NCBI RefSeq assembly: GCF_947500765.1
Contig: NZ_CANMTH010000002.1
Span: forward strand, 124,001 to 188,000
DNA length: 64,000 bases
Origin: an uncultured Formosa sp.
GTDB taxonomy: Bacteria > Bacteroidota > Bacteroidia > Flavobacteriales > Flavobacteriaceae
Direction: 5' to 3'
Part shown: positions 27,940-33,838 of the stretch, piece by piece
How positions within the stretch are numbered: the stretch's first letter is position 1
Layout: every line of letters starts with the position of its first letter
Translations under genes and position numbers: made by a program
The notes under the pieces: model-generated
Databases searched by the model: none
The model's input: only the letters and a program-made list of their open reading frames with translations
Told to the model about the DNA's origin: nothing

Positions 27940-28200
27940 ATGAAAATATCAGTAGAATTAACTTTAATGCCTTTAAATGCAGATTATGAGCCACCAATAC
28001 AAGAGTTTATAAAGGATTTAAGAGCATCAGAATTTACGGTTTTAGAAAACCCTTTAAGTACTCAAGTGTATGGAGATTTTGATAAAGTTATGCCTTTTCT
28101 AACAGACGCTTTAAGAACATCTTTTGAAAAACAAGAGGGTGTTATTGCAAATATGAAAATTGTGAAGAGCGATAGAAGCGACTATGTCCCAAATTTTTAA
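27940..28200 (+). CDS. Thiamine-binding protein (YkoF/MTH1187-like)
   Basis: Eighty-six-residue cytoplasmic protein with a ferredoxin-like fold pattern: MKISVELTLMPLNADYEPPI, FIKDLRASEFTVLENPLSTQVYGD and a C-terminal helix and strand. It resembles the thiamine-binding family that includes YkoF half-domains and MTH1187-like proteins. Assignment to thiamine is strengthened because the next gene, which overlaps it by 17 bases, is a PnuT-type transporter and a TPP riboswitch lies downstream. It may buffer or deliver thiamine. Confidence 0.7.
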   Translation: MKISVELTLMPLNADYEPPIQEFIKDLRASEFTVLENPLSTQVYGDFDKVMPFLTDALRTSFEKQEGVIANMKIVKSDRSDYVPNF

Positions 28201-28816
28201 TTTCCTCTTTGGCCAATATGAAGGCTATCAAACCATAAATATAGTATTAGAAATTGTTGCCGTTATTTTTGGTTTTTTATCGGTGTGGTATTCTAAAAAG
28301 AATAACATATTGGTGTTTCCAACAGGTATGGTTAGTACGCTTATTTTTGTGTACCTGTTATTGCATTGGGGACTCTTAGGAGACATGATGATAAATGCTT
28401 ACTATTTTATAATGAGTGTTTATGGTTGGTACGTTTGGACACGGCAAACAGGAGAAAACCAATTAACTCCTATTTCTACAATGACAGCTAAAGAACAAAA
28501 AATAGGAGTAGCAATATTTTTTGCTACAATAGTATTTGTGTATGTGGTTTATACTGTTTTTGATAAGTTAAATAGTTGGACGGCTTGGGTAGATATGCTC
28601 ACTACAGCTTTATTTTTTGTAGGAATGTGGCTTATGGCAAAACGAAAATTAGAGAATTGGATTTTTTGGATTATAGCCGATGTTATTTCTATTCCGCTCT
28701 ATTTTTATAAAGGATTTACATTTACAAGCCTACAATATTTAGGATTTACATTTATAGCAATTTCAGGATATTACGCATGGAAGAATACCTTAGGCAAAGA
28801 CCTTCAAACAGTTTAA
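28184..28816 (+). CDS. pnuT: PnuC-family transporter, probably thiamine (PnuT)
   Basis: Inner-membrane vitamin facilitator of 210 residues with about seven helices. Family marks: IVAVIFGFLSVWYSKKNNI, NAYYFIMSVYGWYVWTR and WIFWIIADVISIPLYFYKG. PnuC relatives carry nicotinamide riboside or, in the PnuT branch, thiamine. The overlap with a thiamine-binding protein gene and the TPP-controlled receptor nearby favour thiamine. Such proteins depend on intracellular phosphorylation to trap substrate, and a kinase gene overlaps its 3' end by 40 bases. Confidence 0.85.
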   Translation: MSQIFNFLFGQYEGYQTINIVLEIVAVIFGFLSVWYSKKNNILVFPTGMVSTLIFVYLLLHWGLLGDMMINAYYFIMSVYGWYVWTRQTGENQLTPISTMTAKEQKIGVAIFFATIVFVYVVYTVFDKLNSWTAWVDMLTTALFFVGMWLMAKRKLENWIFWIIADVISIPLYFYKGFTFTSLQYLGFTFIAISGYYAWKNTLGKDLQTV

Positions 28817-29343
28817 AAATAGTTTTGTTTGGACCAGAATCGACAGGGAAAACCGTGTTGGCAAAACAATTAGCAACGCATTATAATACTGTTTTTGTAC
28901 CAGAATATTCAAGAACATATGCTCTCGAAAAATTAAAAAATAACGAAATGCTAACCGCCGCAGATGTTATGCCTATTGCAAAAGGGCAAATTTTTTTAGA
29001 GAATGAGTTAACCCAAGTTGTTGAAAAGCTATTAATTTGCGATACCAATTTATTAGAGACAAAGGTTTATGCAGAACTCTATTACAAAGGGTTTTATAAT
29101 GAAGTTTTAACAGCTTCGGCAATTAAAAATCATTATAATTTATACTTTTTAACGTATATTGACATGCCTTGGGTAGCAGATGATGTGAGAGATAAACCTA
29201 ACGAAAGAGAAACTATGTTTAATGCTTTTGAAAAAGCGTTAATCGATTACAATAAACCCTATGTTTTATTGAAAGGAACGTATAAAGAGCGTTTCGATTT
29301 AGCCGTAAAACATATAGACAATTTAATATTAAAGCAAACATGA
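28777..29343 (+). CDS. NadR-like P-loop kinase, candidate thiamine kinase
   Basis: ATP-dependent kinase of 188 residues like the ribosylnicotinamide kinase domain of NadR. Walker A is IVLFGPESTGKTVLAKQL (about 15-32); VPEYSRTYA and ICDTNLLETKVYAELYYKG follow, and WVADDVRDKPNERE is the lid region. No nucleotidyltransferase domain is fused. Established role of the family is NR phosphorylation. Here the position between pnuT and a TPP-controlled receptor suggests that it phosphorylates thiamine (inference). Its start overlaps pnuT by 40 bases and its stop overlaps the next start (ATGA). Confidence 0.8.
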   Translation: MEEYLRQRPSNSLKIVLFGPESTGKTVLAKQLATHYNTVFVPEYSRTYALEKLKNNEMLTAADVMPIAKGQIFLENELTQVVEKLLICDTNLLETKVYAELYYKGFYNEVLTASAIKNHYNLYFLTYIDMPWVADDVRDKPNERETMFNAFEKALIDYNKPYVLLKGTYKERFDLAVKHIDNLILKQT

Positions 29344-30893
29344 ACTTTTCAGAACAAGATTTAAAACAAATAGATAATAAGGGCTTAACCTTGCAGAAAA
29401 TAGATTCGCAAATAGAGCAATTTCAAAATGGTATTCCTTTTATAGATTTAGAATCACCAGCGATATTAAATCATGGTATTTTAAAATTTGATGAAGTAGC
29501 ACGTAAAAACTATGTCGATGCTTACGATGGAAAACGCGATAACATATCTGTTTTAAAATTTGTTCCTGCTTCTGGAGCTGCAACTAGAATGTTTAAAAAT
29601 TTATTCAATTTTGTTGCTAATTTCAATCCAGAAAGTGAGGAGTCTTTCAGTGCTTATGCTGAAAAAAACAACGATAAAAATCTAATTTCATTTTTCGATG
29701 GATTAGAAAAATTACCTTTTTACGATTTAGTAATCGAGGTTATACTTAAAAGTTATCCTGAATATAAATCTTTCAATGCTGATAAACAAAAATGGATTTT
29801 TGTAAACGTGATGCTAGGTGAAAAATATTTAGATTACGGGGCTTTTCCAAAAGGATTGTTGCCGTTTCATAAATACGATGATCATATTTCTACGGCTTTT
29901 GAAGAGCATTTGTTCGAAGCGGCTTCTTATGCATCAACAAATAATAATGCACATTTACATTTTACAATCTCAGAAACTCATAATGATAAGTTTGAAGCAG
30001 AGTTTAAGAAGATTAAGTCTCGAGTAGAAAAGGCAACTGGATTAGATTATAATATCTCATTTTCATTTCAAAAACAATCAACAGATACAATTGCATTAAC
30101 TCCAGAAAAAGAGCCATTTCGTGAAGATGATGGGAGTTTACTATTTAGACCTTCTGGACATGGCGCTTTAATCGAGAATTTAAACGATTTAGATGCCGAT
30201 GTTATTTTTATAAAAAATATTGACAACGTAGTGGTTTCTAAATTCAAGGAAAATATTGTTGAATATAAAAAGGTTCTTGCAGGGGTGCTTTTAGAGCTTC
30301 AAGAACAAGTATTTACTTATTTACAACAGTTAGATAATAACGTGTTAAATGAGAATGAATTGGTTGAAATTGCCGAATTTTTACGACGTAAATTAAATGT
30401 TGATATTTCTATTGAATTTGAGAAATATGCTTTACAATATCAGGTTGAATATTTAAAAGAAAAATTAAACAGACCGATTAGAATTTGCGGGATGGTTAAA
30501 AATGAGGGAGAGCCAGGAGGTGGTCCATTTTGGGTAGAAGATCACAGAGGTAATCTATCGCTTCAAATTGTAGAATCTGCACAAATTGATTTAAATAACA
30601 GCATTCAAAAAGATATCTTAAATGGGGCTACCCATTTTAATCCAGTAGATTTGGTTTGCGGTACTAAAGATTATAAAGGTAATACTTTTAATTTGTTGAA
30701 ATTTGTAGATCCTAAAACAGGTTTTATTACTCAGAAAACAAAAGGCGGACAAGATCTTTTAGCTCTTGAATTACCTGGATTATGGAATGGAGCTATGGCA
30801 AATTGGAATACGGTTTTTGTAGAAGTCCCTTTAGAGACTTTTAATCCTGTAAAAACAGTTGCAGATTTATTAAAACCTGCTCATCAAATGTAA
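29340..30893 (+). CDS. DUF4301 family protein
   Basis: Cytoplasmic protein of 517 residues. The N-terminal third contains VLKFVPASGAATRMFKNLF, the family signature, which resembles the phosphate-binding loop of nucleotidyltransferases. Other conserved blocks are RPSGHGALIENLNDLDADVIFIKNID and ICGMVKNEGEPGGGPFWVED. Function is not established. Because it overlaps the kinase gene (ATGA) in the thiamine locus, a role in activating or storing the vitamin is possible but unproven. Confidence 0.8.
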   Translation: MNFSEQDLKQIDNKGLTLQKIDSQIEQFQNGIPFIDLESPAILNHGILKFDEVARKNYVDAYDGKRDNISVLKFVPASGAATRMFKNLFNFVANFNPESEESFSAYAEKNNDKNLISFFDGLEKLPFYDLVIEVILKSYPEYKSFNADKQKWIFVNVMLGEKYLDYGAFPKGLLPFHKYDDHISTAFEEHLFEAASYASTNNNAHLHFTISETHNDKFEAEFKKIKSRVEKATGLDYNISFSFQKQSTDTIALTPEKEPFREDDGSLLFRPSGHGALIENLNDLDADVIFIKNIDNVVVSKFKENIVEYKKVLAGVLLELQEQVFTYLQQLDNNVLNENELVEIAEFLRRKLNVDISIEFEKYALQYQVEYLKEKLNRPIRICGMVKNEGEPGGGPFWVEDHRGNLSLQIVESAQIDLNNSIQKDILNGATHFNPVDLVCGTKDYKGNTFNLLKFVDPKTGFITQKTKGGQDLLALELPGLWNGAMANWNTVFVEVPLETFNPVKTVADLLKPAHQM

Positions 30894-30895
30894 TT

Positions 30896-31303
30896 ATGAT
30901 TGATAATGCTCAGCTTATTTCAGAATTATCTTTTAAAGCCGTACGTAGCTCTGGTGCCGGTGGGCAACATTTAAATAAGGTCGCTTCAAAAGTAGAATTA
31001 AGTTTTAGTATCTTAGAATCATCAGTATTAAATGACAATCAAAAAGAACGACTCATAACTAAACTTCAGTCTCGATTAACTAAAAATCAGGTGTTATTAT
31101 TACAGTGTGGCGAAAGCCGTAGTCAGCATAAAAACAAGGAATTGGTTATCAGTCGTTTTTTATATATTTTAAAGGAAGGGTTGAAAGTTTCTAAACAGAG
31201 ACGAACTACAAAAATTCCAAAATCTGCAATTAAAAAGCGTCTTAAAAGTAAGCGCCTGGTCTCGGAGCGAAAAACATCTAGACGTAAGCCAAACTTAGAT
31301 TAG
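30896..31303 (+). CDS. arfB: ArfB-like peptidyl-tRNA hydrolase (class I RF domain)
   Basis: Rescues stalled ribosomes by hydrolysing peptidyl-tRNA. The 135-residue protein has the GGQ loop (VRSSGAGGQHLNKVASKVEL) and a basic C-terminal tail (KSAIKKRLKSKRLVSERKTSRRKP) that in ArfB enters the mRNA channel. No codon-recognition domain is present. The start lies two bases after the DUF4301 stop, so it is the last gene of the unit. Its link to thiamine is probably only positional. Confidence 0.9.
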   Translation: MIDNAQLISELSFKAVRSSGAGGQHLNKVASKVELSFSILESSVLNDNQKERLITKLQSRLTKNQVLLLQCGESRSQHKNKELVISRFLYILKEGLKVSKQRRTTKIPKSAIKKRLKSKRLVSERKTSRRKPNLD

Positions 31304-31341
31304 AATTCATAAAAAAAATTTAATTTATCCAGAATTGTTAC

Positions 31342-31349
31342 TACATTTG
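31342..31349 (+). promoter_or_regulatory. Predicted promoter of the thiamine receptor leader
   Basis: TACATTTG matches TAnnTTTG. The first aptamer base pairs begin about four bases downstream, so transcription would start almost exactly at the riboswitch. Confidence 0.5.
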
Positions 31350-31352
31350 TAG

Positions 31353-31431
31353 CGTTCTCATAAAGGGGTGCCTATTATCGGCTGAGATCATACCCATTGA
31401 ACCTAGAACAGGTAATGCTGTTTAGGAATCG
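31353..31431 (+). promoter_or_regulatory. TPP riboswitch (thi box) aptamer
   Basis: The conserved elements occur in order: GGGGTGCC (31365), GGCTGAGA (31380), ACCC (31392), TTGAACCT (31398) and AGGTAATGC (31410). A P1 helix can form between CGTTCT and GGAATCG with one bulged base. It binds thiamine pyrophosphate and normally represses the gene downstream, here a TonB-dependent receptor 218 bases away. Confidence 0.93.
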
Positions 31432-31627
31432 AGCATTAAAAAATGTCTAACAAACATTTTAGCTAGTGCGATAAAGTTATCAATGTTATTTTGTACTTCT
31501 AAATCTAAACGTGTTATGCATTACTCATGTCATGATTTAAAATCAAAAATAACAGTTTCAATATCGTATAAGTTTAAGTGCTCAAAATTAAAATCAATCT
31601 AAAAATATAGAATAAGGACCTCTTTTT

Positions 31628-31650
31628 ATTCGATTAACACATTATCGAAT
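31628..31650 (+). promoter_or_regulatory. Start-codon hairpin of the thiamine receptor gene
   Basis: Perfect 7-base-pair stem ATTCGAT / ATCGAAT with a nine-base loop. The 3' arm covers the first two bases of the ATG at 31649, so it could block initiation. It is a candidate expression platform for the TPP aptamer. Confidence 0.5.
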
Positions 31651-33838
31651 GAAACATTTTTTTGTTTTAGCATGCTGTTTAATATCAGGTATTTCAGCAT
31701 TTTCTCAAGAAGAGAAAACACAAGATTCAACAACTGTTAATACCGAAACTTTAGACGAAGTTTTGGTTACTGCAGTTCGAGTGCAGGCAACTTCTCCAAT
31801 TACACACTCTAACGTAGATAAAGCAACTTTGGCCAAGCGTAATCTTGGTCAAGATCTTCCAATGTTATTAAACTATTTGCCTTCGGTAGTTACTACCAGT
31901 GATGCTGGTGCAGGAATTGGATACACAGGAATTCGTGTTCGTGGTGTAAGTGCACAATCTACAAATGTTACCATTAACGGAATTCCGTATAACGATGCAG
32001 AATCTTTAGGTACATTTTGGGTTAATTTAGGAGATATTGCTTCGTCTGTAGAGAGTCTTCAATTACAGCGTGGTGTAGGTACTTCTACTAACGGGTCAGG
32101 AGCCTTTGGAGCAAGTATAAACGTATTAACAGATGCCGTATCTAAAGTCGCAAGTGCAGAAATTTCTAACAGTTTTGGTAGTTTTAATACGAGAAAACAC
32201 AATACAAAATTCAGCACGGGTTTATTAAACAATCATATTGAAATTGCAGGACGCTTATCTGTTATTAAATCTGATGGTTATGTAGATCGTGCCTCGACAG
32301 ATTTAAAATCTTATTTCTTACAAGCGTCTTATATAGACGATAATACCTTAATCAAAGCCGTAGTTTTTGGGGGGCATGAAAACACATATCAATCTTGGAA
32401 TGGTATTGAGAAAGAGACGCTTAAAGACGATAGAACGTATAATTCTGCAGGAATTTACACTGATGATGAGGGGAACGTAAAATTTTACGATAATGAAGTA
32501 GACGATTACCAACAAGATCACTATCAATTACATTGGAACGAGCGTTACAATAACAATTGGTCTACTAATTTAGGTTTAAATTATACCAAAGGGAGTGGGT
32601 ATTTTGAGCAATATAAAGAAGATGCAGAGTTTGCAGATTATGGATTAAATAATGTAACCATTGGAGGAGAAACCATTGAAGCTACAGATATTATTCGTCG
32701 TCGTTGGTTAGATAATGACTTTTATGTAATTAATGCTAATGCGAATTTTAAAAATGAATATATAAATGCTTTTTTTGGAGGATCGTTTAGTACCTATGAT
32801 GGCGACCATTTTGGAGAAATAATTTGGTCTAAATATGCTAGTAATAGTGAAATAAGAGATCATTATTACGATGGTAATGGGAAGAAAAAAGATTTAAGTG
32901 TATTTGCAAAAGCAACATTTAGATTAAATACGCAATGGAGTTTATTTGGAGATTTACAAATGCGTTTTGTAGATTATAAAACGAGCGGAATAGATTCTGA
33001 TCTCTTACCTTTAAATATAGACGAACAATATAATTTCTTTAATCCTAAAGCAGGTGTAACTTATGAGTTAGATGGAAATAATAATATGTATTTTTCTTAT
33101 GCACGTGCAAATAGAGAGCCAAATAGAGACGATTTTCAGAATAATTCAGATATTAAACCAGAACAATTAAACGATTTTGAATTAGGGTGGAGACATGAAA
33201 AACAACGTTTTAAATTCAATGCAAATGTGTATTATATGCAGTATAATGAGCAATTGGTGTTGTCTGGCAGAATAGACGATGTTGGGAATCCAATTAGAAC
33301 AAACAGTGGTGAAAGTTACCGTTTAGGATTAGAAATAGAATCTGCCATAGGGATTACTAAAGCATTTTCTATTCAGCCAAATATTACTTTTAGTACCAAT
33401 AAAAATAAATCAGTTTATGTTCCGTTTGATGGTGTGCTGAAAGATTTTGGATCTACAAATATCTCGTTTTCTCCAGATATTGTATTAGGAAATGCTATTG
33501 TTTTTCAACCTAATACCTTATTTCAAGTTTCATTGCTAAGTAAGTTTGTGGGCGAACAATATATGGGAAACACAGATTCTGAAACTTCTAAATTAGATAG
33601 TTACTTTGTAAATGATTTAAATATTACTTACGAATTTAAAATGAAATCTATTTTTAAGTCAATTATTTTAAGTGGTGTTGTCAATAATATTTTTAACGAA
33701 AAATATGTGTCTAATGGCTATTATTACACTTATGATGATGATTGGAGTAGTTCAACTTCAATAACAACAATAGAAGGTGCAGGATATTATCCGCAAGCAA
33801 CTACTAACTTTTTAGTAGGAGCAACTTTAAAATTTTAA
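31649..33838 (+). CDS. TonB-dependent receptor, predicted thiamine uptake
   Basis: Outer-membrane receptor of 729 residues with signal peptide (ISGISAFSQ), TonB-box-like LDEVLVTAVRV, plug domain (about 50-160: LLNYLPSVVTTSDAGAGIG, VTINGIPYNDAES) and a 22-strand-type barrel ending FLVGATLKF. The barrel includes the typical FSYARANREPNRDDF block. No N-terminal carboxypeptidase-like domain and no SusD partner are present, which fits a small-molecule receptor. Control by a TPP riboswitch gives the substrate prediction (thiamine or its phosphates). Confidence 0.93.
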   Translation: MKHFFVLACCLISGISAFSQEEKTQDSTTVNTETLDEVLVTAVRVQATSPITHSNVDKATLAKRNLGQDLPMLLNYLPSVVTTSDAGAGIGYTGIRVRGVSAQSTNVTINGIPYNDAESLGTFWVNLGDIASSVESLQLQRGVGTSTNGSGAFGASINVLTDAVSKVASAEISNSFGSFNTRKHNTKFSTGLLNNHIEIAGRLSVIKSDGYVDRASTDLKSYFLQASYIDDNTLIKAVVFGGHENTYQSWNGIEKETLKDDRTYNSAGIYTDDEGNVKFYDNEVDDYQQDHYQLHWNERYNNNWSTNLGLNYTKGSGYFEQYKEDAEFADYGLNNVTIGGETIEATDIIRRRWLDNDFYVINANANFKNEYINAFFGGSFSTYDGDHFGEIIWSKYASNSEIRDHYYDGNGKKKDLSVFAKATFRLNTQWSLFGDLQMRFVDYKTSGIDSDLLPLNIDEQYNFFNPKAGVTYELDGNNNMYFSYARANREPNRDDFQNNSDIKPEQLNDFELGWRHEKQRFKFNANVYYMQYNEQLVLSGRIDDVGNPIRTNSGESYRLGLEIESAIGITKAFSIQPNITFSTNKNKSVYVPFDGVLKDFGSTNISFSPDIVLGNAIVFQPNTLFQVSLLSKFVGEQYMGNTDSETSKLDSYFVNDLNITYEFKMKSIFKSIILSGVVNNIFNEKYVSNGYYYTYDDDWSSSTSITTIEGAGYYPQATTNFLVGATLKF

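Follow-up and report, generated by a model that had tools for sequence, protein, structure and literature searches.

A probable OFF-type TPP riboswitch acting on the bare start codon of a thiamin TonB receptor gene in Formosa sp.

The leader of the gene for a predicted thiamin TonB-dependent receptor in an uncultured Formosa sp. probably holds a TPP riboswitch of the OFF type. It would act on the initiation of translation, with the AUG itself hidden in one of two mutually exclusive folds. This reading is drawn from sequence comparison, which has shown a TPP aptamer, a hairpin over the start codon, an alternative hairpin (b:b') sharing a strand with it, complementarity between the 5' strand of the aptamer and the loop of the alternative hairpin (a:a'), and the near absence of the aptamer helix P1. 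The features are listed below; the window is the whole stretch of 64,000 nucleotides that was analyzed.

31342..31349, + strand: predicted Bacteroidota-type -7 promoter box TACATTTG, fitting the consensus TAnnTTTG
31354..31445, + strand: TPP aptamer (RF00059; 45.7 bits, E 1.2e-7), P1 essentially absent
31356..31360, + strand: UCUCA, complementary to the invariant aptamer UGAGA (31383-31387); possible ligand-free helix
31362..31368, + strand: strand a, AAAGGGG, the 5' strand of aptamer helix P2 plus 3 nt; proposed switching strand (swap tests, covariation)
31427..31433, + strand: AATCGAG, the switching strand of the initial annotation; not conserved, lost in congeners and without cognate signal
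31610..31615, + strand: strand b, GAAUAA, the 5' arm of the alternative (anti-sequestor) hairpin (b:b' covariation)
31619..31625, + strand: strand a', CCUCUUU, the loop of the alternative hairpin, complementary to a (comparison of leaders, module)
31624..31634, + strand: 5' arm of the start-codon hairpin, UUUUAUUCGAU (85% of cells paired versus 75.2% shuffled)
31626..31631, + strand: strand b', UUAUUC, common to the alternative and start-codon hairpins (columns 22-27 of alignment A2)
31644..31654, + strand: 3' arm of the start-codon hairpin, AUCGAAUGAAA, including the AUG at 31649-31651 (sequence, covariation, fold)
31649..33838, + strand: TonB-dependent receptor of 729 residues (PF00593, 2e-28; PF07715)

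The nearest named relatives of the source genome found by protein search are Formosa algae and Formosa sp. L2A11, the receptor of the latter being 92% identical to that of the window. By gene context, the receptor is predicted to be an outer-membrane receptor for thiamin: an RF00059 match precedes the gene, thiamin-binding and PnuC-like proteins are encoded upstream, and orthologous receptors sit behind TPP aptamers across the class Bacteroidia. The ATG (31649-31651) lies 204 bases downstream of the aptamer end. The block directly upstream on the same strand (27940-31303) encodes a thiamine-binding protein (PF01910), a PnuC-like transporter, a NadR-like AAA_28 protein, a DUF4301 protein and an RF-1-domain protein; no separate TPP aptamer for the genes of this block was found in the window. 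The TAnnTTTG consensus occupies positions -12 to -5 (PMC9723704), which predicts a transcription start near 31354, so that the mRNA would begin with GUUCUCAUAAAGGGGUGCC. In most relatives TTTG ends 9-16 nt ahead of the G-run of the aptamer.

The RF00059 match spans the full model length (1-105) with the conserved P2-P5 architecture, and the core motifs GGGGUGC, CUGAGA, ACCC and GAACCU are intact. Its score of 45.7 bits is below the gathering score of 54.3, and the same holds for the receptor-type aptamers of all 13 scanned Flavobacteriaceae relatives (L012-L024; 31-47 bits). The low score looks like a threshold effect of a Bacteroidota subtype, and membership in RF00059 is supported by the E-value, the core and the gene context. 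Three of the five P1 pairs in the Rfam alignment are non-standard, and the two P1 strands gave a weak cognate signal (z -1.7, 126 leaders). Because the ligand-binding core is intact, we treat the absence of P1 as the mark of a subtype and not as grounds for exclusion from the family. The second TPP aptamer of the genome (L001, G000:C3:515904-515997; 65.7 bits) precedes a small ThiS-like ORF. A match to the purine riboswitch at 31140-31228, located within the upstream ORF, was rejected as a chance hit (E 0.76).

The start-codon hairpin had been described in the initial annotation as ATTCGAT/ATCGAAT (31628-31634 and 31644-31650). These arms are present and are part of a larger structure, UUUUAUUCGAU/AUCGAAUGAAA, in which 11 pairs cover the whole AUG. 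The region from -35 to +25 folds with -9.1 kcal/mol compared to -4.3 for shuffles (z -2.5, P 0.016), and the receptor AUG ranks second most buried among 56 ORF starts, a control that drew on the ORFs of the window only. In alignment A2, which comprises 93 leaders and was used for the covariation tests of both helices, 85.0% of the hairpin cells are paired versus 75.2% after shuffling, with 101 versus 55 double-change cells; the covariation score is 0.252 versus 0.127 (0/500 shuffles), and slid versions of the helix reach at most 0.108. The proposed coupling of the aptamer to a hairpin at the start codon is supported, this hairpin being conserved and covarying over the 93 leaders. Two further claims made for this leader also agree with our results: no intrinsic terminator or terminator-like site, such as a transcription-attenuating riboswitch would have, was found in 31250-31800, and no purine block resembling a Shine-Dalgarno sequence is visible just before 31649. 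The stem holds the AUG itself and is not a case of Shine-Dalgarno sequestration of the E. coli thiC type. In Flavobacterium johnsoniae, initiation is tuned partly by structure near the start codon, which lowers initiation (PMC6847099). One lineage of Bacteroidia (L281, L283, L291 and L293) has a GGAG-type Shine-Dalgarno site before the receptor, together with an anti-Shine-Dalgarno strand, CUCCUCCG or a variant of it, which hides this site and could be captured by an aptamer strand; this lineage is a possible natural contrast to start control in leaders lacking such a site.

The alternative hairpin is formed by b (GAAUAA) and b' (UUAUUC). It is paired in 96.8% of the cells of the 93 leaders, with double changes at five of its six pairs (15 double-change cells versus 1.2 expected); its covariation score is 0.136 versus 0.068 after shuffling (0/500), slid versions scoring at most 0.061. 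As both hairpins use UUAUUC, they are mutually exclusive, and covariation at columns 22-27 of A2 is seen for either helix, as expected for a strand shared by a sequestor and an anti-sequestor. Nearly all Flavobacteriaceae leaders contain a module consisting of GAATAA, about 3 nt, CCYCTTT, TTATTCG and a spacer, followed by a complementary stretch that extends into the ATG. Of 40 relatives, 19 have a single exact copy of the module in their genome, in each case at the receptor start as judged by coordinates; the reversed control pattern was never found among these 40 relatives. In distant families the b:b' stem is fully rewritten with the C-rich loop being kept, the rewritten stems including CGAG/CUCG, ACAGGA/UCCUGU, UUCAAA/UUUGAA and CAGAUAA/UUAUCUG. 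Strand b is missing in the Flavobacteriales leaders L227, L229, L237, L240 and L245-L253 (Chryseobacterium-type, L227-L253). In these leaders a direct pairing of CCTTTTATTC with GAATGAAAGG is possible across the start codon, with codons 2-3 apparently mimicking the aptamer strand.

The evidence for a:a' comes from the comparison of leaders. A class-wide RF00059 search returned mostly aptamers of the thiS/thiC type, because the receptor type scores low; the receptor protein was then used as a query. Leaders of orthologous receptors were fetched by protein search and by region, and 219 of them had a recognisable upstream aptamer. In swap tests, strands were exchanged among species and cognate pairing was compared with swapped pairing. 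An aptamer 5' strand finds its best partner in the leader it belongs to (z -7.5, 0/20000 permutations), also when the canonical AAGGGG flanks are left out (z -5.6); further swap tests of strand a yielded z -5.1 (0/5000) for 70 long leaders, that is, those with at least 85 nt between aptamer and ATG, and z -6.5. When six segments at the 5' side were compared, the one ending at the G-run gave the strongest signal, and segments shifted by -16, -4 and +4 gave weaker ones. A control stretch after GGGGTGCC showed no signal in the test of cognate pairing. In the 70 long leaders, the partner of strand a is the start region and not the linker.

Covariation links the three bases that precede GGGG to the three that follow CCYC (0.81/0.76/0.75 paired versus 0.69/0.57/0.58; 0/5000 permutations at each of the three positions, the site being anchored on the C-run only), and no covariation was seen at the fourth position before GGGG. 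Hence a:a' is a helix of seven pairs, NNNGGGG/CCYCNNN. Clear cases are UAAACAGGGG/CCCCUGUUUA (L197), CGAUUUUGGGGG/CCCCCAAAAUCG (L120), AGAGGGG/CCCCUCU (L198), ACAGGGG/CCCCUGU (L206) and ACGGGG/CUCCGU (L208). The same capture by the 5' strand was found for 28 aptamers of the class, mostly of the thiS/thiC type (z -6.3, 0/5000). In the Formosa sequence alone the a:a' pairing is not significant (P 0.25) and would not stand out as a match of seven pairs, so the case rests on comparison. In the thiS/thiC leaders L128, L131 and L145, the 5' strand ACUUUAGGG pairs with a CCUAAAGU strand, which is flanked by AUUCCU, a possible partner of AGGAAUG at the likely start codon.

These helices suggest the following mechanism. 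Without TPP, strand a (AAAGGGG), located near the 5' end of the mRNA, would pair with a' (CCUCUUU) in the loop of b:b'. We infer that both helices form simultaneously; the strand order a-b-a'-b', in which roughly three bases separate b from a', is that of an H-type pseudoknot. Strand b' would be tied up without access to the start region, leaving the AUG open so that ribosomes could start. With TPP, binding of the ligand would fix GGGG in the aptamer helix P2 and thereby free a'; the weak b:b' stem would yield, and b' with its neighbors would form the 11-bp helix UUUUAUUCGAU/AUCGAAUGAAA over the AUG. The direction of the effect would consequently be OFF, presumably at the level of translation. 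The decision between the folds would probably be co-transcriptional (kinetic), falling at a time when the 3' arm of the start hairpin has yet to be transcribed. The motif UCUCA, which 63 of 127 leaders have ahead of the G-run (2.3 expected from shuffles), could play a part here: its helix with UGAGA is present in the ON-state fold, and at the predicted 5' end of the mRNA the motif might keep the aptamer open in the absence of ligand, so that AAAGGGG is presented.

The calculated energies fit this model without deciding on it. The minimum-energy nested fold of the free leader (-67.2) holds a:a' plus a closed start hairpin, and the aptamer-formed state has -66.3. The b:b' stem alone amounts to -0.6 kcal/mol and the start hairpin to -8.5, while the rough estimate for the pseudoknot (about -66) rests on an assumed penalty. 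Nearest-neighbor energies do not favor the open state: as the free fold keeps the start hairpin closed, the ON state needs the extra stability of the pseudoknot or a kinetic decision. The absence of b:b' in some lineages (Chryseobacterium-type, L227-L253) speaks against the model; there, the start region itself seems to be the direct partner of a'.

The initial annotation had assigned the switch to a different aptamer strand, AATCGAG at 31427-31433, which was said to include the 3' side of P1, to capture the hairpin arm without TPP and to release it when P1 forms with TPP. Its general idea, capture of a platform strand by the aptamer in a competing pairing, agrees with our results, but the capturing strand was misnamed. 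The complementarity between AATCGAG and TTCGATT does exist in the window, and L006 and L008 have it as well; however, it does not exceed chance, a run of at least seven pairs being found in 41% of shuffles, and each of the two strands contains the palindrome TCGA. In other leaders of the same genus (G001-G006) the equivalent strand is AATCGCG (L007), AATGGAG (L009), AAAAAGA (L010) or AAAATAC (L011), with both aptamer and hairpin intact; loss of the alternative pairing in relatives that keep the aptamer had been named in advance as an observation that would refute this model. The assignment to P1 was not confirmed either, as this helix barely exists (three of five pairs non-standard; z -1.7). 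The aptamer 3' flank showed no cognate preference for the start region in the 70 long leaders (z -1.07, 690/5000 permutations). The aptamer 5' strand did show such a preference in these leaders (z -5.1, 0/5000). The bases just 3' of the aptamer pair cognate-specifically with the nearby linker (z -8.7, 70 leaders), probably as a spacer hairpin. Taken together, a switch by way of AATCGAG has a very small probability.

Of the other explanations, the one closest to our model does without the pseudoknot: a:a' alone would compete with the base of the start hairpin, and GAAUAA/UUAUUC would be a separate or transient fold. Leaders lacking b retain a:a', and a' is itself part of their start hairpin (CCTTTTATTC/GAATGAAAGG); in Formosa, two bases are common to a' (31619-31625) and the hairpin arm (31624-31634). 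Both observations are in line with such a competition. Nine pairs of the Formosa start hairpin survive the formation of a:a', however, so that a:a' alone would not open the AUG, and there is strong covariation of b:b', the hairpin that has a' as its loop; we regard this explanation as unlikely. A switch at the mRNA level, where a hidden start would leave the mRNA open to decay or Rho-dependent termination, with translation only as the trigger, is decidedly improbable. It has precedents in E. coli thiC and tbpA, which couple the hiding of the start site to the mRNA level, Rho termination having been shown for thiC (PMC5234074, PMC11487190). On the other hand, there is no intrinsic terminator at the Formosa leader (31250-31800), and no significant mRNA response to thiamin is reported for the thiamin-transport operons of B. 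thetaiotaomicron, which fits translational control (PMC5613172). The chance that the aptamer is degenerate, having lost TPP binding so that the start hairpin merely sets a low translation rate, appears almost negligible: the score below the Rfam gathering threshold could be taken in this way, but the core motifs are intact, all 13 family relatives scanned are likewise below the threshold at the receptor gene, and the a:a' pairing, which is coupled to the aptamer, is under selection.

The preferred model, a pseudoknot-type switch on the AUG, appears to apply throughout a class of bacteria from the environment and the gut. Whether the Bacteroidia TPP riboswitches share one platform, in which P1 has been abandoned, transcription starts at the switching strand and an H-type pseudoknot is formed by this strand with the C-rich loop of an anti-start-strand hairpin, is in our view evenly balanced. 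If they do, control is handed over to an AUG without a Shine-Dalgarno site, in a phylum where such sites are hardly used. The preferred model bears on how riboswitches control translation in bacteria not relying on such sequences, and it is concrete enough for two-sided mutations to probe each of its helices. Because their scores fall short of the Rfam threshold, receptor-type aptamers may go unannotated.

We found no description of the receptor-type expression platform in the open-access literature searched. Bacteroides TPP riboswitches are reportedly the subject of a 2019 preprint by Costliow, Degnan and Vanderpool, and THI elements are said to have been treated by Rodionov and colleagues in 2002. 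The TPP riboswitches of Bacteroides thiamin genes have the same ligand class, gene family (OMthi, pnuT) and phylum as the Formosa switch; their mode of action is called uncertain, and no expression platform is described in the part of the source available (PMC5613172). In AdoCbl riboswitches, too, expression is switched by pairing between a C-rich loop and a remote segment; that pseudoknot forms with the ligand, whereas the loop pairing in Formosa is predicted to form without it, and the aptamers are unrelated (PMC2258182). The E. coli thiC and tbpA riboswitches combine OFF logic with an anti-P1 stem (PMC5234074, PMC11487190). As predicted for Formosa, their ligand-free platform strand pairs with the 5' region of the aptamer; this anti-P1 pairing breaks the aptamer and prevents the sequestering stem, the region reported for thiC being C7-G16 (PMC5234074, PMC11487190). 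At the E. coli thiM locus, the sequence of which was read here, the aptamer 5' strand likewise finds a long downstream partner. The E. coli thiC and tbpA switches sequester a ribosome binding site with a Shine-Dalgarno sequence and have a P1, whereas in Formosa a bare AUG would be hidden and P1 is nearly absent; also unlike thiC and tbpA, Formosa has its a' in a hairpin loop whose stem covaries, which gives the strand order of a pseudoknot. In summary, the Formosa switch resembles the anti-P1 kind of E. coli, its seemingly new features being the hiding of a bare AUG, the near absence of P1 and a platform of the pseudoknot type.
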